Under the pieces are notes generated by a model that saw only the letters and a list, made by a program, of their open reading frames with translations, searched no databases and had not been told where the DNA came from. Position numbers and translations under genes: made by a program. Below are positions 9,153 to 48,126 of a stretch of DNA of 64,000 bases, piece after piece. The stretch covers positions 15,575,134 to 15,639,133 of the forward strand of contig JAFMSR010000003.1 in the NCBI GenBank assembly GCA_022818135.1, written 5' to 3'. The DNA is from Saxidomus purpurata. Lineage: Eukaryota > Mollusca > Bivalvia > Venerida > Veneridae. Positions within the stretch are counted from its first letter, which is position 1. Each line of letters opens with the position of its first letter.

Positions 9153-9652
9153 NNNNNNNNNNNNNNNNNNNNNNNNNNNNNNNNNNNNNNNNNNNNNNNN
9201 NNNNNNNNNNNNNNNNNNNNNNNNNNNNNNNNNNNNNNNNNNNNNNNNNNNNNNNNNNNNNNNNNNNNNNNNNNNNNNNNNNNNNNNNNNNNNNNNNNNN
9301 NNNNNNNNNNNNNNNNNNNNNNNNNNNNNNNNNNNNNNNNNNNNNNNNNNNNNNNNNNNNNNNNNNNNNNNNNNNNNNNNNNNNNNNNNNNNNNNNNNNN
9401 NNNNNNNNNNNNNNNNNNNNNNNNNNNNNNNNNNNNNNNNNNNNNNNNNNNNNNNNNNNNNNNNNNNNNNNNNNNNNNNNNNNNNNNNNNNNNNNNNNNN
9501 NNNNNNNNNNNNNNNNNNNNNNNNNNNNNNNNNNNNNNNNNNNNNNNNNNNNNNNNNNNNNNNNNNNNNNNNNNNNNNNNNNNNNNNNNNNNNNNNNNNN
9601 NNNNNNNNNNNNNNNNNNNNNNNNNNNNNNNNNNNNNNNNNNNNNNNNNNNN
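9153..9652. other. Assembly gap (500 N)
   Basis: Exactly 500 N, a conventional scaffolding gap size. It removes the region immediately upstream of the first Fj-like gene, whose first exon starts 84 bp after the gap. Apparent open frames spanning it are meaningless. Confidence 0.99.
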
Positions 9653-9735: not shown

Positions 9736-12700
9736 ATGGGTGTAAAATGGAATAAATACTTCGGTATTTTGAATTTATCAGTGCTGTTATATTTGGTAAT
9801 AAATTCTTACCAAAAAGTTCAAAAAAAATGTTTACAAAATTCTGCTTTCATAAAAGATGAATTTCTTAACGGATCAAAATTCATAAAAGATGGAATATTT
9901 TGGTCAGACCTTTCCGAATCGTTTGTACCAAAAGGTAAGACTACACTTTGTTACTGCAAATTTGTAAAGAAACCACAGTCAACATCAGGTAAATAAGACG
10001 ACCCAATGCGACACAACTTGAAATCAAGACTTTACCGTGTTACTTTAAGATAAGAATCTTGCATACTTGGTCATCCAATTACTTTGAATACCAAAGACCT
10101 TAACTAATGTTATTTCGTGCAGATTATTGAAAATACATGTACGATCAATATTTTGAAGAGATTTTAAACGGTTATATTTTTTCCGTTGCCATATCAACCA
10201 CCTGTTCACGAAGGCGAACGACGACGGAAAACAAGGCGATAAAAATCGAAGCAACAAATACCAAGGTCATAACAAAACTTGCGAACCGGTAACACGCAAA
10301 AACATGATTGCAAAATGGAATAAATGCTTCAGTAGTTTGAATTTGTCAATGCTGTTATTTTTAGCAATCGAATCCAATAGAATTCAGTATTCCAACAACG
10401 TATAATAACCTATAATGTTATAGATACTGAGAAAAATAACTTACTTCGAAGGGGTCGGAAATTATTAAGCCTAAAATATGAAAGATTAGCCTCAGCGATT
10501 TTCGATCAAAAAAATAGGAGTGTATGCCTAAACATTCCGTATGCATGTAAATCGATGTCCACTATTACATTAAGATTGTTTTTTTGTTTTCTGTGATACT
10601 GATGAGTCTTTGATCATGGTAAGTATCATATTCTCAAAAGAAAATCCAATTATTGTACAAGCTGACGCCGAGTGGAATATTGCCAGAGGATGAAAACTGA
10701 ATGAACGTCGCAAGTGAAATAACCATAATAAGGTGGCATAGATGTCGGTATGACACTTGCATGTATTTATTCATGTCGTGGCTTTTTAGAAATTATGTCG
10801 TGGGTACATTATAATAAAGACATGGTCAAAACTTAATTATCTCGTTCCCATGACATATATTTTGTTCCCGCGACATAATGACATATGCACAAGAATGACG
10901 ACATGAACAAGATACATACTATAATGATGACTTTGTAGAATAAACGTTTTGAAGAAGAGAGATGTCATAATTCTAATCAAGTCTCTGTATTACTTTGTCA
11001 CAACATTTGTATTTATATATGCTGACCGGCAAAAGATATGCAGCTTTACCTTTGATCTTGAAATTTATGTGATCGGTTAATCCGAGTTTGGTACTAAGAC
11101 ATAGACATTCCGGGACAAATTGAAAACAGTTTTGAAGAAATTAATTCATTGTAATTTTAATGCAACCTGATAGCGAACTTAACTTTCTGCAATAATTCAT
11201 GAAAACGTGTGTGCTGCTTTTTTCTAAAAACGATAACAAAATGCAAAACTGGCGTTTCTTTTGACTTTAAGTATAGATAAACATTTTGAAATTTGGTCAT
11301 AAGCGGTCAAAACAAGATAAACATCGCATATACCGGTATGATGTAGATCTATATATAATTGGGCCCGGCACTTTGATTTTAGAATTTGCTTTCGTTAGTG
11401 ACGTAGATTATGCTTTTCAGGTTTGTCTACTGACGAAAGTATGAAATTCGTGAAGAATATACGCAACTACGTTGTGAAGAGTCTACGACACGGCAACAGG
11501 ACTATGTGCGGCACTGAAGAAAATGCTATTGCGCGTTTAGAAGATGATACATTGATGTGTGTAAGATACAAAGAAAACCCATTTTATGTTTATGGTAATA
11601 AAATTGAGTAACTTATTTCTTTTCTAGTCTATTTCGTTGTGAAGAGTATACGATAACGCAACAAGACAATGCGCGGCATTGACAGATTTAGATGATACAT
11701 TGGTGTATGTAAAATATAAAGACAATCCATTTTATGTTCATGGTAACTTTTTTCCCTTCTATCTTTTTTTAGCTTTAAGGTCCATGCTACAATAGCGCTC
11801 CTGGTCATTTTGCCTACGTTCATTATGTAACTTGTAAGAAAACCCAATAAAAGCCATACTAAAAGCCAAACATATAAGAAATTATCACCGTAAGGCTAAT
11901 ATTTCTCTGTTTTAATTTTAGAAATGAACATTATCCCTTTAAAAACATGGACCATATTGGGTTTTGATGTTGTCTTTCCTCATATGATACATATAAAAAC
12001 TTACATAACCGTCTTCTTAAATCAGTGGTCAGCTTTGTAAACAAAACAAACACATTAGCTTCCAAATGTGGTCTAAAAAGATTGAAATTGTTTTCTTGTA
12101 TATTCCTAACCTCTAGCGGGAAATTCTTTTTGTCATAACTAGCTGAGGTATTGGTTTACTACTTGTCTCGGATGCTTCATATGGATAGCGTACCGGAAGT
12201 GGTTCTTGCAAGGACTAATTCGTCATCGGCACTGTGGAGAAATGTTGACATTGGCAAACTTTCATGGAATAATAATGAAGTCGTTGCAATGATAAGACTG
12301 ATACCGGATGTGACGTAAGTACTGATTAACCTTTGGAGCATATTTGTTTTGATGGATCGCCTTGAAGGAAAATATGGAAATATTGCATCTAATAATTGTA
12401 AACAAATGCGTAATTACGCAACCGAATTCTTAATTATAGGAAATAAACAAATTATTCATATTTGCTTTGAAGAAACTAACAATGTTTAAGAACCTGCGAA
12501 AGTCTACTGCATGTGTTAGAGTCGTCTTGAGAGACGTTGCAACTAATAAATGAAAAAAATGCGTAATTACACGAACGAATTTGTAATAGGCAATAATGCC
12601 CAAAACGGGAAGACTTGTATGGGCAAATAAACCTCCGTTAAGCTTTAATTATAACTCTAAATTTTATGATCTATTTTTTTTGTCATGACATCTTAAACTG

Positions 12701-14237
12701 CATTGCACGGACCATTTTTAGGGGTTGTGTTAACTTTCATCGAAAAAAATTTACTTAAAATTTTGTCTATGAAGTTAACTGGCAACTTGAAGCTGTTGGC
12801 ATAGGAACATAACACAATGCTTTTGTTGTTATGATTTGAAGTGAAACTGTTTTACTCTGCTGTTTTAGTAGCCATAATCATGCACCAAGGATTATTAGAG
12901 ACGCACACTCCGATAGACAGGTGATCACGGTTAATACAATTCGTAAATCCAGGCTAATGAATCAAACAGATATAGCAGATCTGATTCAATGGGGAACGTT
13001 GATAGTATTTGATAATTTGATTGGTCATTATGACAGGTACGTATTTTTGATTGGTCGTTATGACAGGTAAGTATATTTGGATCCGGACGACTGTATGACC
13101 TTAGTATGCAAACAGTGTCGCCTTGAATGCGGTAAACAGATACAAAAGACGCCATTAAACCAATAATTAATACTGGAATTGACACACAATGACTATGAGC
13201 AGTATTTCATCATGTTTTATATTTTATATAGTGTGATAAATTCTTCGTCATTACAGACACTGCCTCAAGTCCATCTCCTTGCTGTATTTTCCTGACTGGG
13301 TTTATACTGTGACGAATTTATACTATCATTATTGTTCAAGGTTTATAAGGTCTGAACCTTTTAACCCTGAAGGGGCGTCTACGGCCGACCCAAGCATTTC
13401 TCACATAATGCTGTTATGCTGTAAAACTTGAATTTATTGGCTAAAGGGAGATTTTTGGTAGGGGGTGCCAACTTCCTACTTGCCAAAGGATAATGTTTAC
13501 AAAAAAGGGAAAAAGTATCCGTTCTGTAAAGCCTGGAAATCCCCATTCTCCTCGTTCAAATATTTTGATAATCAAATCAAACCCTGGTTCGAGATATTAT
13601 TTATTAGAGAGATATTCAGTTACTTTTTGGCTACATGGTGTTTACTTGTTTCCATAGTACTATACAATATTTTGATATATACATTTTATGATGTTAATAT
13701 AGACTTTAAATATACATGTTTATGTTATTACATCATAACATTATCTTTTGAACATTTATCGACGAAAGTAATTGTTTCTATATGTGCCATCCACACAAGA
13801 GCTCAATTCAGTGTACAAACTTTCTTATTCTTGTCAGGTTAAACCTCTGGGAAAGACGAAATGAAGAAAATTTTGCTGGATCGCTACATAACAGTGTGAA
13901 ATCTTCTAAAGGCAAAATATGGCTAGTTGACCATGAAAAATGTCTTTTTTATCAATACAAACATCGTGATGCAATCTATAATTTTAGGCATTTGCTGGAT
14001 ATCCATGACAAAATGCTTAAAACGATATGTGTGTTTCAGTATTCGCTAGTCAAAAGATTGCAGGCACTTTCTGAACAATCCTCACCTTTTAATACTCTCT
14101 GGAACTATACACTGTCTCATGAACCTTTACTGAACACAATGCTGAAAGACAGCAGAGTTGAAATAATTGCGCAACTGTTTAACAAACGACTAGCGCAAAT
14201 ACTACAATGGATAACACTCTGTAAAGAAATACAGTAA
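9736..14237 (+). CDS. Four-jointed-box kinase-like protein, copy A (5 exons)
   Basis: Exons 9736-9934, 11421-11594, 12143-12314, 12869-13036 and 13838-14237, all with GT/AG borders; 1113 nt, 370 aa. The family (Drosophila four-jointed, vertebrate FJX1) comprises Golgi type II membrane kinases that phosphorylate Fat and Dachsous cadherin repeats. Seen here: lysines at 4 and 7 before a hydrophobic anchor at about 9-25; GIFWS..SFVPKG before residue 67; MCGTEENA with CVRY; AEVLVYYLSRML and VPEVVLA; DLIQWGTLIVFDNL; YDR at 236-238; WLVDHE with D269 and E271 at the DNE-type metal site; and a C-terminal CVF helix region. The start is fixed by an in-frame TAG two codons upstream. An alternative donor at 13066 would add 10 residues. 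Length is a little below FJX1. Family call is strong; substrate is unknown. Confidence 0.9.
10304..10405 (+). pseudogene. Decayed duplicate of Fj-like exon 1 in intron 1 of copy A
   Basis: Encodes MIAKWNKCFSSLNLSMLLFL, clearly related to the exon 1 start MGVKWNKYFGILNLSVLLYL, and then diverges and stops at TAA after 33 codons. The preceding ACCGGTAACACGCAA also matches the flank of the real exon 1 (ACCGGAAACACGC). It has no matching donor and is probably non-functional. Confidence 0.8.
10745..10925. repeat. Dispersed repeat with TTATGTCGTGGG / CCCGCGACATAA inverted motifs
   Basis: Contains ATTATGTCGTGGG and, about 80 bp later, CCCGCGACATAAT, with additional half-copies (CATGTCGTGG, CCCATGACATA). 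The same element lies at the equivalent place in intron 1 of copy B (about 21447-21610), so it was present before the gene duplication. Confidence 0.65.
11628..11742 (+). pseudogene. Decayed duplicate of exon 2 inside intron 2 of copy A
   Basis: Matches the last two thirds of exon 2 (CGTTGTGAAGAGT, GCGGCATTGA, GATGATACATTG, CCATTTTATGTTCATG then GT). It has an acceptor-like TTTTCTAG just before it and a GTAACT donor after it. A deletion of about 17 nt relative to exon 2 shifts the frame, so inclusion would break the protein. No equivalent exists in intron 2 of copy B (22986-23404). Confidence 0.85.
13031..13070 (+). promoter_or_regulatory. Tandem in-frame 5' splice sites at exon 4 (copy A)
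   Basis: Two donors share the context GACAG|GT: the first cuts after 13036 (CAG|GTACGT), the second after 13066 (CAG|GTAAGT, perfect consensus). They are 30 nt apart, so both keep frame with exon 5. The longer form adds YVFLIGRYDR, repeating the preceding LIGHYDR. Copy B keeps the same arrangement. Confidence 0.75.
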
Positions 14238-20409: not shown

Positions 20410-23400
20410 ATGGGTGCAAAATGGAATAAATACTTCAGTATTTTAAATTTGTCAGTGCTGTTATATTTGATAATAAATTCTTACCAAAAATTTCAAGAAA
20501 AATGTCAACAAAATTCTGCTTTCACAAAAGATGAATTTCTTAACGGATCAAAATTTATAAAAGATGGAATATTTTGGTCAGACCTTTCCGAATCGTTTGT
20601 ACCAAAAGGTAAGACTACACTTTGTTAAGAAACCACAGTCAACATCGGGCATTTAAGACGACCCGATGCGACACAACTTGAAATCAAGATCGTGTTACTT
20701 TAAGATAAGAATCTGGCATACTTGGTCACCCAATTACTTTGAATAACAAAGACCTTAACTAATGATATTTCAGATTACTGGAAATACATACACACACACG
20801 ATCAATATTTTTGAAGAGATTTGAAAAGGTTATATTTTTATGCCATATCAAGCACCTGTTCACGAAGACGAACGACGACGGAAAACAAGGCGATAAAAAA
20901 TCGAAGCAACAAATACAAAGGTCATTACAAAAACTTTCGAACCGGAAACACGCAAGAACATGATTGCAAAATTAAATAAATGCTTCAGTAATTTGAATTT
21001 GGCAGTGCTATTATATTGAGCAATCGAATCCAATAGAATTAAGTATTCCAACAACGTATAATTACCTTTAATACTTAGATGCTGAGAAAATTAACTTACT
21101 TCGAAGGGGTCCGAAATTATTAAGCCTGAAATATGAAACAATAGCCTCAGTAAGCGATTTTCGACAAAAAATATATATTATATACATGTACTTATGTATA
21201 AGTATATTCCTTAAAATTCTGTATGCATGTAAATCGATGTCTACTATCACATTAAGATTGTTCTTTGTTTTCTGAGATACTGATGAGACTTTGATCATGG
21301 TGAGTATCATATTCTCAAAAGAAAATCCAATTATTGTACAAGCTGACGCCGAGTGGAATATTGCCAGAGGATGAAAACTGAATGAACGTCACAAGTGATA
21401 TAACCGTAATAAGGTGGCATTGATGTCGGTATGACACGTGCATGTATTTATTCATGTCGTGGTTTTTAGAAGTTATGTCGTGGGTACAATATAATAAAGT
21501 CATGGTCTAGACTTAATTTTCTCGTTCCAATGACATAAAATTTCGTTCCCGCGACATAATAATGACATGAATAATAATTATGAACAAGAATAACGACATA
21601 AACAAGATACAGACTTCAATAATGACTTTGTAGAATAAACGTTTTGAAGAAGAGAGATTTCATAATTTTAACCAAGTTTCTGTTTTACTTTGTAACAATA
21701 TTTGTATTTATAAATTCAGAGAAACATTTAGTAACTTGATCATTTGTGGTTAAAACTAACGATGATGATAAAATTAGGCCCGAAACTTCGACTTAGACAA
21801 ATACTTTCGCCAGAGACAAATGTGAAATTACTGGTTTCTTACTGTCTCACTGAGTGAAAAAAGTAGGTAGCAAGAGCTGTCCCTCATAAGTGCCGAATGC
21901 CCCTAAAGAGGTGTCTCAAAGTCTTTGTCCTTGTCCGGCAAGATGTAGAACCGGTACTTGCGCATGACACGTTATCTTTATGTGCTGAACATGTTCCAAT
22001 TCATTAAAATTGTTCAGTGTATAACATAGTTACACTCGGGCAATTGCAAAGAGCATTTGTATATCGCGTATACAAGATGCTTTACTGTCTGACCTCTAAG
22101 TGTGACCATGACCCTCAGGGTAAGGACGCGGGACTTAATCTCCATGTACTGAACAATTGTGCCATGTAATTTTAAAATCCTTACATGCATGACAGCTTTA
22201 CCATGTGAACAGGATTCCACTAACTTTACACTCGAAGTGTGACCAGGGTCGTGGGTCTTGCACGCGACACATTGTCTTGATGTACTGAACATAATTTTGT
22301 TAGTTATTTAAAAATCCATCATTGCATAGCGAAGTTACAATCCAGACACGAATGTGTGCATATATCAAGGAGTCCAATACCTTTTAAACTATAAGAGCGA
22401 CCGTGACCTTTGAGATAGGGCTGTGAGTTGCACGCGACACGTCGTCTTTATTTGCTGAACATTTGCACCATCTTTCAATGCATGACAAAGTTCCAGCCCC
22501 GACACGAAAAAGCGTAAGGACGGACGCATGGATAGGCAGGCAGACGGACGGACAGATTGTGCAATTTTAATATGCCCATCTTTTTTAGGGGGGGGGGGGG
22601 GGGGGCATAAAAGGTAACTATGATATTACTGCTTTTTTATGTCTGTTTGAACTTCGGGTAACAAGTTCTATTCCTGTGAAAATTACGTCTTTCTATTATA
22701 GTTCTAAGATTGATATAAGTAACACTGGTGCAGGCTACAGTAGGTGTTACATTACCATTTCGCGCACCCGTTGATGACGTAGAATTATGGCGCCTGATTA
22801 AACCTTTTCAGGTTTTTCGTCTGACGAAAGTATGAAATTCGTGAAGAAAATACGACAGTACGATGTGAAGAGTCTTCGACACGGCAACAGGAAAATGTGC
22901 GGCACTGAACAAAATGCAATTGCGCGTTTAAGAGATGATACAGTGGTGTGTGTAAGATACAAAGAAAACCCATTTTTTGTTTATGGTAATAAAATTAAGT
23001 AACATTTTGCCCTTCCATTCTATGTACTTTTAACTTTGAGATCCATTCTAAAACTGCGCCCCGTGCTCTTTTACCTTCGTACACTACGTAGCTTGTAAGA
23101 AACCCCAATAAAAACATACTAAAACATGGCGGAGTACTAAAATAAAACTTAATAATTATAAGAAATTATCACCGTTAGGCTAATAATTCTGTTAAATGTT
23201 TTGAAATGAACATTATCCCTTGAAAAACATGGACAATATTAGGTTTTCATGTCGTTTTTCCCCATACATCTATTTAAAGCAGTGGTCAGCAAACACATTA
23301 GCTTTTAAAATGCGGTCTAAAGAGGTTGAAACTCTTTTCTTGTACATTCCTCACATCTTCAGCGGGGAATTATCAATTGTTTGAATTTATTTTGTTATTA

Positions 23401-26400
23401 CTAGCTGAGGTGTTGGTTTTCTACTTGTCTCGCATGCTTCAAATGGATAGTGTACCGGAAGTGGTTCTTGCGAAGACTAATTCGTCATCAGCACTTTGGA
23501 GAAATGTTGATATTGGTGAACTTTCATGGCATAATAATGAAGTCGTTGCGATGATTAGACGGATACCGGATGTGACGTAAGTATTGACGATGAAAACATT
23601 GCGTCTTATAATTGAAAAAAAAAATGCGTAATTACGCAACCGAATTCGTATTCATATGAAGTAAATAGAGAATACTACTCATATTTGATTTGAAGAAGCT
23701 TAAATATTAAAGAACTGTAGTGGTCAGGGTTCAATTCCAGCTGGGGACTTAGGTATTAACTACTCTGGATTTACTTTACATGCGACGGGGATAGTTTGGA
23801 TGAGCAGGTAGAAGCTACTAGGGAGCGGTAGCGATTTAGAAATTGCAGGGAATGTACAGTTGATGTTTAGCTGCATATAAGAGAGGAGGAGTGTAATGGT
23901 TATAAGTCACTTCCAACAGCCTTGCTGTTGGGCTAACACTTTATATTTAGGTCGTCTTGAAAGATAATGCAACTAATAAATAAAACATTTATGAACATTT
24001 GAGAGTATTTTATGCGTGAGTTGTGTTAACTTTCATGGAAATATATTCAGTTCAATGTTTTGGCTAATACTTGACTGGCAACATTGAAGCTGACTTTCTT
24101 CAACCTGGTGCTGTTGGCCAAATTCAAGAACGGACAAGTACCAGAATGGCCCACTTTTTGTTTTTAAAAGGAAGGTTGTGATTACAGTCATGTTTATTCT
24201 AGGAAAAACTTAACCTTCTGAAGGACATGGTATAATTTTTTCTCAGCTATGAGATACATTTTCTGCACATTTACCGATGATAGATAAGCTTGTCCTTCAT
24301 CGCTTATCTCTCATCGCTGCCGGACTATCTTTACATTAATTATGAGCAGCCAGCACATCACATAAAAATCGAAAATTGACTGTATTTTTATTGGAAATAA
24401 ACATAGTCTTGGGTATTTATTTTCTTAGTTAGATAATTTTCTATCCATCTATAGCAGTTTTGAGGTAAAATTCGAGAAAAAGGTGGACTTTCATTTTTTC
24501 ACCCCCATCCCGTATTTACACTTATGTCTGCTTACTTTCGCGAAAAATGCGATTAAAACAGTGAGAAAATAAATCTACCATGTCCGTTGAGTTGTGGATA
24601 AGGAAATCCCACCCTCGGGTTGAGATAACTCGACAGAGCCTCTCATCCCTCGGGTGGGATTTCCTTATCCACAGCTCATTAACATGGTAGATTCACTTTA
24701 TCATTCACAGTACTAGCTTTATGACCGAACTATAAAACATGTCTGTGAAAACTTAAGTTAGAAAACGTGTACTTAATCTTCATTCTGATCAAATGTCTTG
24801 ATTTAGTTGCAACAAATAAAAGAACAAAACTGTTCAAAGTACTCAAGTATGCCCTTAAAACTCTGAACACTCAATATTAAAATTAGTTTAAGAATACATG
24901 TACTTAAAAGCGTATTTGCCAGATCCATTTGGATCAGTTTAATGTCCAGGTGCCCGGCTGCAAAACCCAATTTGGGGCTTCATTCATGACTTGAGTGAGG
25001 CCAAGTTGATTTTGCCATCATGGACATAAGTAAAGCTTTTGACGTAGTTCACCATAGTCGACTCCTACTAAAATTATCCCATTATGGCATCAGGGGCCCT
25101 ACATATTCATGGATCAAAGCTATTTTAGGTCACAGAACACAAAGAGTAGTGGTAGAGGGGCCAACATCAAGCTTTGCTCCTGTTAAATTAGACACCCTCC
25201 GGGGTCCGTACTGGGACCTCTTCTATTCCTGCTCTACATAAATTATCTACCTGCGTCTTCGTCTATTTGCAGTCCCAAACGTACTGATTTAAATTGGAAT
25301 TAATTTAAAATCAAGAAGACAATAAAGTAGGCTAACTCTATTCCATACAACTGTTTAAAATCATGTTGATGTCAATCCCAAACAATTCATAACATCATAC
25401 ACAAGACAATCGAGACATTACTATCATTCAGCATTTCAGATACCATTTATCACTGTTGACTCTTACAAAAACTCATTTGTATTCGGACTGTCCTGTGTAA
25501 CGCATTACTATATATCTCATATAATCAGTGCTGAAACAATCTCCGTATTTAAATCAACGCTGGCTGCATCCGTGTTTCATCCATAAATACTATACTTAAG
25601 GACAAAAGTTCTGTCCGGTTCAAAATTGTCTTATTAAATTTTAATTGTACGTTACTTTTAATTTTTTATTTGCAAATTTATGTTTTGAGACTACTTGCTA
25701 CATTACAAGGTGTAAAGAATTATATACAAAAGCATTCAATCAACCGTGACGGCATACACCACGAATTTCACATTTATCTAAATTTTATGTACATGAAGCT
25801 TATAATCACAAAAATTTTAAGTGATTTTTGTTACCAAAGGATAGTCCCATTGAAAGACGTAAAAATTTAGACAAATACTCAACATATGTTGCTATTACGA
25901 AGCTTTCAAGATAGAAAAATGCGCGCGTTTTATGTCGGCTGGAGGACCGTGAGCATACAACACATGTTGCACGTGCGTTGAACGCCCACGAACATTCTAT
26001 TCGACGTCACGAGCATTGAAAATGTTTTAATTGACTCGAAAACGATGATATTCTTATGCTTTTCTTATTATGAACAAAATATCCATTTTCAGTTTTTGTA
26101 TTTCTTTAATTATACCGGACAGAACTTTTGTCCTTAAGTATATATACGTGCTTTGATCCCGTTTTGAACCCTACTAATTTCCGTCTTACCGTACTACATG
26201 TACTGCATACACTCAGTGTGACTTCTTAATTTTAAATATTTTAACACCCCGTCCTTTCTCGTTTAAAAACAACCACTTAAAACGAGCGCAACTCAAAATC
26301 TAAAATGTTCGCCATATTGTACGTAAACAGATCTCAATTTTGGTACCAAATATATAGGCTTTCAGAAAAGTAGTCGATGAAAAATCACAGAAAACAAAGT

Positions 26401-29199
26401 GCACACTTTCTTTTGGAACTGAGTATATGACAACCTTTTTGCAGGGATTTTAATGTTTTTGTGTTTGCACCATTTTTTCAATAACTATCAGGAAGTACCA
26501 TGTGGATTGAGTAGCCTGGAAAACCTGACAGTCTTTTACTTTTTAGCCCCCTACGCATGTTCATACTATTCAGTTTTGAACGGTAGCCATTACAAAAAAG
26601 AAGAAGAATGAAGTGATAACTGTTTTACTCTGCTGTTTCAGCAGCCATAATCATGCACCAAGGATTATTAGAGACGCCTACTTCGATAGACAGGTGATCA
26701 CGGGTAATACAATTCGTAAATCCAGGCTAATGTATCATACAGATATAGCAGATCTCATTCAATGGGGAACATTGATAGTATTTGATAATTTGATTGGTCA
26801 TTATGACAGGTATGTATTTTTGATTGGTCGTTATGACAGGTAAGTATTTTTCTTATCCGGACGACTGTATGACCTTAGTATGCCAACAGTGTGGCAATGA
26901 ATGTGGTAGCAGCAACAATGGGATATGAAATAGAGTTAAGTAATCAAATCAAACACTGGTTTGAGATATTATCTATTGGAGTGATATTCAGTTACTTTTT
27001 GGATCGATTGATTTATTCAATCGGATCCAAAGTTAACAGAGTATAGCTTCCTTACGACCGAACTCTTTACATACAAACAAGTAGTTCCATATATTCCATT
27101 GTTACGAATTATAATGCCCTCTGTTTTAAAAATTATATAGTAACAGATCTAAATAATATCAAAACATTTCAGAATAGCATAATATTATAGTGTTGTTTTT
27201 CTTATAATTTGTAACTTAAATCAACGAGGTATCTGTTCTGTATAGAACTTTTTTCCTACGCGGTTTTATCGCCAGACCGGTGTGACATGAGAAATGTAAG
27301 ACCCGTGAAATACGTATCGCTACACCGGATACACTAAATTCAGTGTTTCCGCGAGAGCGCGTTTTCTGCGGTTTTGACGCACTCATTTTGTCAATGACGC
27401 AACAGAAAAAGCAAAGAGCGTCTTCTATGACGCAATTAAAATGTGTATGATCAAATTACTACAAAAACAACATTTCAAAACCTCTCAAAATGCTTCGAAA
27501 TGCAAGATAAATTGTTGATAAAATACGCTTCCGGTATGGGATATGTCTAATTTTGGCCCTATTCCGTCGTCGTTGTCGTCTGATTTCAGATCGACCCGCA
27601 TTTTGTACCATTGTGTTTTTGTGTGTGTTGATTCTTATGATACCGTCTTCATAGATCGTAGACGCATAACAAGAGATGGTCGACGAACCTTTATAGGGGA
27701 AACAAAGACGTCTTTCTGAGTGATTTTAATGATCATTTTGTAGTCATTTCGCACAGACTGTCACTATTGAAAGGGGTTTAAGTGGGCCAAATGATATCCA
27801 AGTTTAATGTCTATGGTTAAATGCACTTATGAAAAATTCGCTTTGTGGACAAATTTGACTTTTGAGATGCAGTGACAAAATGGAAAGCATCCAAAGAGGA
27901 ACACCAGTTGCCTTGCCAACCCTTTGATTACCCACCATTTTGTGATGTATCACATGCAGTTTTACAGAAGTAAACTGAATAAAAATTCTTTAACACATAG
28001 TCAGGCCTTTTATTTTTTTACAATAAAGGGTGTGGCCCTCGGACTTTCTAAATGACACCCAAATTCGGATACAGGGAATTGGCACCCAGGGTCTTCCTCC
28101 TCCATGAAAGCCGGAAGTTGCAATATGACCTTAGCTGTTGGGTGCGACGTTCAATCCGAATTAATTCGCACAATACAATCAAACTTATGGGCATATCCCG
28201 TAACTTTTTAATGACATTTAAAGTTGTTCAAACCATAAATTTTTAGTTCAGTTTTGTCAAAATCCATTTCTCAGTTACGATTCACAGCTTAATACTTCAT
28301 AGGGTAGTTGAACATAGTCACTGAATGACATAATGTAAGCACATGGGTTCCTATCTCAAAAGTAAAGTTTACACAAATGGTGAAAGGTCAAAATTTGTGG
28401 ACAGTTGTGTCTCCAGTTTATAACTTTACTCGTGCAAGGGTTGTCCTGATATTCACACATGTATGTGTACAGTCTATGTTGTCCTGATATTTACACATGT
28501 ATGTGTGCAGACTGTGTTGTTCAGAGACAATCGATCCTCCAGCACTTTCAGTCCTTTGATTGAGTAATTGGTGTTCACTGGTTTCCATTTTACTATACAA
28601 TACTTTGATATATACATATCATGATGTTTATATAGTTTGTATATACATGTTTATGTAATTACAGCATAACATTATCTTTTGAACATTTATCGACGAAAGT
28701 AATTATATTTGTTTAATTACATTTATACATATAAACCAAACGACAAGATGATGTTTCTCATAGCTCAATTCAGTGTACAAATTTTCTTTCTCTTGCCAGG
28801 TTAAACTACTGGGAAAGACATCACCAAGAAAATCTTGGGGGGAAACTACACAACAGTGTGAAATCTTCTAAAGGCAAAATATGGCTAGTTGACCATGAAA
28901 AATGTTTTTTTTATCAATACAAACATCGTGATGCAATCTATAATTTCAAGCATTTGCTGGATACCCATGACAAAATGCTTAAAGTGTTATGTGTATTTCA
29001 ATCTTCGCTAGTCGAAAGATTGCAGGCACTTTCTGAACACCCCTCACCCTTTAAAACTCTCTGGAATTATACACTTTCTCATGAACCTCTACTGAAAACA
29101 ATGCTGAAAGACAGCAGAGTGGATACAATTGCGAAACTGTTTAACAAACGACTTGTGCAAATACTACAATGGATAACACTCTGTAAAGAAATACCATAA
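20410..29199 (+). CDS. Four-jointed-box kinase-like protein, copy B (5 exons)
   Basis: Exons 20410-20608, 22812-22985, 23405-23576, 26642-26809 and 28800-29199; 370 aa, with exon lengths and phases identical to copy A. The protein keeps the N-terminal anchor (WNKYFSILNLSVLLYLIINS), MCGTEQNA, CVRYKENP, VPEVVLAKTNSSSALW, DLIQWGTLIVFDNL, YDR and WLVDHE (D269, E271). It therefore looks like a second working Golgi kinase of the Fj/FJX1 family. An in-frame upstream ATG at 20368 would add 14 residues, but copy A has a stop there, so 20410 is preferred. Introns 1, 3 and 4 are longer than in A because of mobile insertions. An AATAAA follows at 29282-29287. An alternative exon 4 donor at 26839 adds 10 residues. 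Confidence 0.9.
20960..21019 (+). pseudogene. Decayed duplicate of Fj-like exon 1 in intron 1 of copy B
   Basis: Starts MIAKLNKCFSNLNLAVLLY and hits TGA at codon 20. It matches the decayed exon at 10304-10405, so this extra exon 1 existed before the two gene units separated. Confidence 0.8.
21447..21610. repeat. Dispersed repeat with GTCGTGGG / CCCGCGAC motifs (copy B intron 1)
   Basis: Counterpart of the element at 10745-10925, at the equivalent intronic position. Confidence 0.6.
21865..22615 (-). repeat. GGTGGGCATATT-family dispersed repeat with 18-G tract
   Basis: Same family as 17640-18600 (CAAGAGCTGTCCCTCATAAG start, TGCATGACA and GCACGCGACAC units, GGACGGACAG end). It is inserted in intron 1 of copy B. 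A run of 18 G at 22588-22605 interrupts the terminus. Copy A has no equivalent here. Confidence 0.75.
23716..23950 (+). mobile_element. tRNA-derived SINE insertion specific to copy B intron 3
   Basis: Perfect B-box GGTTCAATTCC at 23728-23738 near the left end. The flanking AAGAACTG and GGTCGTCTTGA are nearly continuous in copy A around 12490-12535, which lacks the element. It therefore probably inserted after the gene duplication. Confidence 0.65.
24572..24693. repeat. Fold-back element with 42-bp arms
   Basis: Arms 24572-24614 and 24652-24693 are inverted repeats; both contain GTGGATAAGGAAATCCCACC on one strand or the other, and the ends read AATCTACCATGT and ACATGGTAGATT. The loop contains CTCGGGTTGAGATAACTCGA. 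Located in intron 3 of copy B, absent from copy A. Confidence 0.85.
24940..25290 (+). mobile_element. Reverse transcriptase fragment of a non-LTR retrotransposon
   Basis: Translation shows DFAIMDISKAFDVVHH, then LLLKLSHYGIRGPTYSWI and RTQRVVVEGPTSS, matching the LINE RT domain. After a frameshift near 25200 it continues GSVLGPLLFLLYINYLPA. Both ends are missing, so it is a dead fragment in intron 3 of copy B. Confidence 0.9.
25591..26142. mobile_element. MITE with 27-bp terminal inverted repeats and TA target duplication
   Basis: Perfect inverted ends: TACTTAAGGACAAAAGTTCT continuing to CCGGT at the left (25593-25619) and the exact complement at 26114-26140. Each end is flanked by TA, as for Tc1/mariner-type transposition. 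It encodes no recognisable transposase and lies in intron 3 of copy B only. Confidence 0.85.
26801..26845 (+). promoter_or_regulatory. Tandem in-frame 5' splice sites at exon 4 (copy B)
   Basis: Donors after 26809 (CAG|GTATGT) and after 26839 (CAG|GTAAGT) are 30 nt apart and in frame, as in copy A. The insert is again YVFLIGRYDR, so both the spacing and the peptide have been kept. Confidence 0.75.
28440..28515. repeat. 38-bp direct tandem duplication
   Basis: Two adjacent units starting GTTGTCCTGATATT, each containing ACACATGTATGTGT, with few differences. Intron 4 of copy B. Confidence 0.8.
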
Positions 29200-47626: not shown

Positions 47627-48126
47627 NNNNNNNNNNNNNNNNNNNNNNNNNNNNNNNNNNNNNNNNNNNNNNNNNNNNNNNNNNNNNNNNNNNNNNNNNN
47701 NNNNNNNNNNNNNNNNNNNNNNNNNNNNNNNNNNNNNNNNNNNNNNNNNNNNNNNNNNNNNNNNNNNNNNNNNNNNNNNNNNNNNNNNNNNNNNNNNNNN
47801 NNNNNNNNNNNNNNNNNNNNNNNNNNNNNNNNNNNNNNNNNNNNNNNNNNNNNNNNNNNNNNNNNNNNNNNNNNNNNNNNNNNNNNNNNNNNNNNNNNNN
47901 NNNNNNNNNNNNNNNNNNNNNNNNNNNNNNNNNNNNNNNNNNNNNNNNNNNNNNNNNNNNNNNNNNNNNNNNNNNNNNNNNNNNNNNNNNNNNNNNNNNN
48001 NNNNNNNNNNNNNNNNNNNNNNNNNNNNNNNNNNNNNNNNNNNNNNNNNNNNNNNNNNNNNNNNNNNNNNNNNNNNNNNNNNNNNNNNNNNNNNNNNNNN
48101 NNNNNNNNNNNNNNNNNNNNNNNNNN
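47627..48126. other. Assembly gap (500 N)
   Basis: Exactly 500 N, the same size as the first gap. Contig order and orientation across it are unproven. Confidence 0.99.

Follow-up and report, generated by a model that had tools for sequence, protein, structure and literature searches.

The 64,000-nucleotide stretch of Saxidomus purpurata DNA ('the window'; contig JAFMSR010000003.1, positions 15,575,134 to 15,639,133) carries two tandem paralogous genes, termed A and B, that encode kinases related to four-jointed/FJX1. In each of them a 30-nucleotide (nt) unit, composed of 17 exonic and 13 intronic bases, is repeated in tandem across the border of exon 4 and intron 4, so that two in-frame 5' splice sites (donors) precede a single acceptor. 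The anatomy of the repeat, its donors and the reading frame is directly visible in the DNA. Its interpretation is offered more tentatively: the explanation we prefer is that a microduplication created competing donors, both of which are probably used, giving rise to kinases of 370 and 380 amino acids. Alternative splicing at the end of exon 4 is thus a plausible property of both genes.

A tandem duplication across a splice donor

The elements on which this argument rests are the following (a slash marks the splice point).

13015..13079, +: period-30 tandem repeat at the gene A exon 4/intron 4 border (Tandem Repeats Finder, 2.2 copies, 88% matches; self-match at a shift of 30)
26789..26851, +: period-30 repeat at the gene B exon 4/intron 4 border (self-match at a shift of 30)
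13037..13042, +: gene A upstream donor, CAG/GTACGT (GACAG ends at 13036); +4 C; U1 duplex -8.1 kcal/mol
13067..13072, +: gene A downstream donor, CAG/GTAAGT, perfect consensus (GACAG ends at 13066); U1 duplex -12.3 kcal/mol
26810..26815, +: gene B upstream donor, CAG/GTATGT (GACAG ends at 26809); +4 T; U1 duplex -8.5 kcal/mol
26840..26845, +: gene B downstream donor, CAG/GTAAGT, perfect consensus (GACAG ends at 26839); U1 duplex -12.3 kcal/mol
13037..13066, +: gene A optional exon extension, 30 nt, YVFLIGRYDR
26810..26839, +: gene B optional exon extension, 30 nt, YVFLIGRYDR; identical to A at 29 of 30 nt, the sole change (TAC versus TAT) being synonymous
13838..13843, +: shared intron 4 acceptor of gene A, tcttgtcag/GTTAAA
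28800..28805, +: shared intron 4 acceptor of gene B, tcttgccag/GTTAAA

Two GT donors that both match the consensus, and that face one acceptor, are therefore found in each gene. An earlier note on this DNA had placed these donors, 30 nt apart and each within GACAG/GT, correctly to the base in both copies (13036 and 13066; 26809 and 26839), and its description of a perfect downstream site beside a weaker upstream one agrees with the sequence and with the pairing energies. Splicing of the two genes in silico yields a complete open reading frame through either donor (370 or 380 codons plus stop), a difference that corresponds exactly to the ten residues that the note had predicted the second donor to add. 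The same note had proposed a tandem duplication of the exon end together with its donor, which is supported by the period of 30 (the Tandem Repeats Finder input being positions 12800-13200 only) and by breakpoints common to both copies; it had located the repeat properly, with the exception that the repeat starts slightly to the left of the 13020 given there (13016 in A, 26789 in B). In gene B it extends from TTTGATTGG to GTATTTTT, and its units meet at a T run. When a 23-nt probe of the unit was compared to the whole window, allowing up to three mismatches, exactly four matches were found, as against a mean of 0.00 in 100 shuffles.

The repeats of A and B share not only their breakpoints and the T run at the join, but also the same difference (CAT versus CGT, His versus Arg) in the second unit, which argues either that the duplication is older than the split between the two genes or that it was passed between them by gene conversion. 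The claim that the repeat had been retained since before the gene duplication is consequently consistent with the shared breakpoints and the shared change, which gene conversion would also explain. The first unit, LIGHYDR, is identical to the corresponding sequence in both Mercenaria proteins, so that the second, LIGRYDR, is probably the altered one.

Intron phase and the +4 base

Intron 4 is in phase 2 (GAC AG/G), and reading through a GTAAGT or GTGAGT donor in that phase produces Arg-stop (AG/G TAA), whereas reading through GTACGT or GTATGT produces Arg-Tyr-Val. At the upstream donor the +4 base departs from consensus in both copies (C in A, giving TAC; T in B, giving TAT), such that a tyrosine codon stands in place of a TAA stop. 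The same base therefore both weakens the upstream donor and opens the insert for translation, a paired effect that the earlier note had missed. Intron phase in this way acts as a 'gate': a phase-2 GTAAGT or GTGAGT carries its own in-frame stop, and an A at the upstream +4 position would keep the extension from being translated.

The direction of the change is less clear-cut. If the ancestral site was GTAAGT, the upstream copy has lost strength together with its stop; if it was GTAYGT, the downstream copy has gained its match to consensus. Either direction fits use of the downstream donor, but with one or two substitutions behind it each is no more than suggestive.

A sequence of events can be proposed on this basis. 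Slippage between two short T runs probably duplicated the terminal 17 nt of exon 4 and the first 13 nt of intron 4, leaving two competent, in-frame 5' splice sites to compete for a single acceptor. If these sites were at first identical, splicing probably continued from the upstream donor, and the duplication would have been silent; later divergence at +4 would then have left the upstream donor weaker and the stretch between the donors free of a stop. Today splicing probably proceeds from both donors, with the downstream one accounting for a large share of transcripts, as its stronger U1 pairing would favour. A bolder version, to which we assign a low probability, holds that the +4 change 'unlocked' a silent donor duplication, in that the weakened donor and the conversion of TAA to Tyr made a second catalytic-loop peptide available under splicing control in two paralogous secretory kinases, and that its inclusion switches their substrate choice or activity.

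Position of the insert in the kinase

Full-length similarity searches returned nine matches to these proteins, seven of which are named four-jointed box protein 1-like (six from clams, one from a horseshoe crab) and two of which are unnamed; a profile search returned ten relatives, adding one barnacle protein. Both the catalytic-loop aspartate (FDxLxxxxDR) and the metal-binding D-x-E of the family are present in A and B: D237 is invariant, and D269 and E271 are nearly so (numbering of the 370-residue form; 279 and 281 in the 380-residue row), corresponding to D254, D286 and E288 of relative P0002. The structure of that relative was modelled to stand in for the A and B proteins, and the Fam20 kinases are the closest solved structures to the model over most of the domain. 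A place for A and B within the Fam20-like kinase fold is thereby supported by modelling. The Fam20C family (Pfam PF06702) scored 16.2 bits against the 370-residue form and 16.3 bits against the 380-residue form, under its cut-off of 26.8, and a single-protein query matched no solved structure. A 105-residue query across the splice site, aimed at further relatives, returned no candidate sharing three words with it.

The insert adjoins the YDR element, as had been stated previously, and that element most likely holds the catalytic aspartate, to judge from the motif and a weak alignment in which FDNLIGHYDR of the 370-residue form resembles FDFLIGNADR of a hydra Fam20 chain (a profile match that is not significant, E 0.71). 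In Fam20B the catalytic base is Asp299, and a histidine two positions further along, His301, contacts the sugar (PMC5865150, in excerpt). If these correspond to the aspartate and the leading histidine of NADRHH, as our own residue count would have it, then the ten residues would enter directly next to the substrate. YVFLIGRYDR, placed immediately after the likely catalytic Asp-Arg, would accordingly alter a substrate-facing loop and might affect activity. Just 3' of the insertion site the P0002 model is uncertain (block mean 56) and the relatives vary in length, so an insert might be tolerated there.

In the 380-residue form, the first YDR retains the invariant FD-x-L, while the second is preceded by YVF, and the first is for that reason the likelier working loop. 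A nine-row alignment (A3) places the second YDR (D247) in the family column, an assignment of the two copies that depends on the alignment, and the choice of the first as working loop is accordingly tentative.

Which donor is used

Pairing with the 5' end of U1 reaches -9.5, -5.1 and -5.4 kcal/mol at the donors of exons 1, 2 and 3, so that both exon 4 sites in each gene appear good enough for use. For human competing donor pairs, the stronger site is the major one in 86% of cases, and the downstream site prevails in approximately 60% of events overall (PMC9225289).

A number of observations weigh against the use of both donors, or against a function for the longer form. Between near-equal human donors the upstream site is preferred in 60%, and exon-definition minigenes carrying two identical strong sites, with flanking introns of 365 nt, were spliced from the upstream one alone (PMC9225289); the introns that flank exon 4 exceed that length in both genes (554 and 801 nt in A; 3065 and 1990 nt in B). 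Where the encoded protein is ordered, selection disfavours in-frame tandem sites of 3, 6 or 9 nt (PMC2279118, in excerpt). The insert occurs in none of the nine relatives (of ten) that span the site. All of these are protein models, in which an unused downstream donor within an intron would go unseen, and the clam sequences among them are 38-53% identical to A and possibly paralogous, not orthologous. 'Conserved', as the site had been called, is shown between copies A and B only, and the insert is likely lineage-specific. One relative, P0008, ends in ...LIEHND and so matches the same split codon, which suggests that an intron lies there as well.

Nor does the similarity of the two copies point to function. 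Among overlapping 30-column windows, 233 of 1649 in introns and 261 of 968 in coding sequence show no more than one A-B difference, as the insert does. Its identity is ordinary in comparison with the introns and does not demonstrate selection; conservation argues neither way, and no constraint is claimed. Divergence across the coding sequence (96 of 1110 bases) is close to that of the introns (188 of 1901 aligned bases, a count confined to alignable BLAST blocks and for that reason flattering to the introns). Since they split, the two genes have therefore been under modest constraint at most, which weakens the claim that either isoform matters. Masking of one donor by local RNA structure was likewise discarded, as predicted accessibility follows no consistent trend (mean unpaired probability 0.27 upstream and 0.38 downstream in A, 0.48 and 0.29 in B).

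One alternative is that splicing relies on the upstream donor alone, which would leave the second unit as a silent intronic fossil and the downstream donor as a decoy or a source of rare noise. The missing insert in the relatives, the agreement of the first unit rather than the second with the Mercenaria proteins, the minigene result and the many intronic stretches as similar as the insert are all on its side; we nonetheless regard it as rather unlikely, given that the downstream site is a perfect consensus in both copies, with U1 pairing better by roughly 4 kcal/mol, and that the insert is open in both copies even though a consensus upstream donor would close the frame. The opposite outcome would be that both genes have switched entirely to the downstream donor, the intron having slid at one end through microduplication. 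All of the protein would then be 380 residues long and the duplicated catalytic-loop peptide constitutive. This reading would account for the strength of the downstream donor, the off-consensus +4 base and the open insert, and has a parallel in Drosophila, where 9 of 31 intron-position shifts were ascribed to sliding and 5 of 31 to tandem exon duplication (PMC2891723, in excerpt). It is unlikely nevertheless: the upstream donor departs from consensus at +4 only, that donor still pairs more strongly than two of the other three in A and B, and all nine site-spanning relatives lack the ten residues.

Usual animal introns are longer than 30 nt. That makes it highly improbable that the stretch between the donors, which starts with GT and ends with AG, is itself a tiny intron, or that the second CAG/GT serves as an acceptor first and a donor next (stepwise removal). 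Duplication of an AGGT-containing segment is a widely cited route of intron gain (PMC4974935, in excerpt), but the final mRNA would equal that made from the upstream donor, and the sequence gives no call for the extra step. With donor strength favouring the downstream site and exon definition the upstream one, mixed use of the two is judged likeliest, with the caution that human rules may not hold in this organism.

Relation to known systems

Tandem alternative 5' splice sites, in which nearby donors compete for one acceptor and the products differ by a short in-frame segment, are already known, and the donors of A and B resemble them. In contrast to the sites collected in TassDB2, which lie 2-12 nt apart (PMC2878309, in excerpt), those described here are 30 nt apart, and they differ further from the tandem-donor catalogue in being born of a duplication, in both being good U1 matches, in occurring in two paralogues and in their likely location at an active site. 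Novel intron positions in Drosophila likewise involve small shifts, some by way of duplicated sequence with a proto-splice site and two of them at 30 nt (PMC2891723); in A and B, by contrast, the duplication straddles an existing donor and the old and new sites both remain. A duplication that crosses an intron-exon border has also been described elsewhere (PMC4974935), at the border of a first intron and second exon, where it created a new intron; the duplication in A and B lies on the donor side, and its product is an optional exon extension.

Among kinases, the four-jointed/FJX1 proteins (of the Fam20-like secretory group; four-jointed itself phosphorylates cadherin domains in the Golgi) include the named sequence relatives of A and B and share FDxLxxxxDR and D-x-E with them, and Fam20 folds are the nearest to the P0002 model; A and B differ in the optional second LIGRYDR beside the catalytic loop. 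A four-jointed transcript has been noted in clam oocytes (PMC4254928, in excerpt). This donor pair was not reported among the literature matches listed, and what is new is the coupling of donor weakening to stop removal, near a likely kinase active site and in two paralogues. The case illustrates on a small scale how a microduplication spanning a donor can give rise to an alternative exon end, neutral to begin with and available for use afterwards, and because the change sits in what is likely the active-site loop of these secretory kinases, any effect should be easy to assay.

Gene anatomy and other features

9736..14237, +: gene A, four-jointed/FJX1-like kinase (borders set from GT-AG sites and similarity; 370 or 380 amino acids)
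9736-9934, 11421-11594, 12143-12314, 12869-13036 (or -13066) and 13838-14237, +: gene A coding exons
20410..29199, +: gene B, tandem paralogue of A, with the same exon lengths and phases (370 or 380 amino acids)
20410-20608, 22812-22985, 23405-23576, 26642-26809 (or -26839) and 28800-29199, +: gene B coding exons

The coding sequences of A and B are identical at 1014 of 1110 bases, with nonsynonymous divergence (dN) of 0.070 and synonymous divergence (dS) of 0.184 by NG86, and dS of 0.22 by YN00. The dS values, together with the very different intron lengths, make it unlikely that the two are haplotypic duplicates.

The start of exon 4 is also a tandem site, in this case an acceptor, in both copies (12863-12871, TTTTAG/TAG/CC in A; 26636-26644, TTTCAG/CAG/CC in B), at which one serine would be retained or lost in frame. 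Intron 1 contains the longest of 12 intronic blocks shared by the genes (9961-11017 and 20621-21712; 92.1% identity over 1109 columns), which ranks second in identity after a block of 30 columns and may reflect gene conversion. An exon-1-like stretch in intron 1 of B (20960-21175; 34%, E 0.12) is not significant, while a remnant resembling the same exon is found in intron 1 of A (10304-10375; 62.5% over 24 amino acids, E 0.001), and intron 2 of A holds an apparent remnant of a partial extra copy of exon 2 (11633-11765; matched by tblastn in two pieces, at 53% and 56%). The assembly is interrupted within the window by two gaps, each of exactly 500 N, at 9153-9652 and 47627-48126, the first of which stops 83 bases 5' of the gene A start codon.
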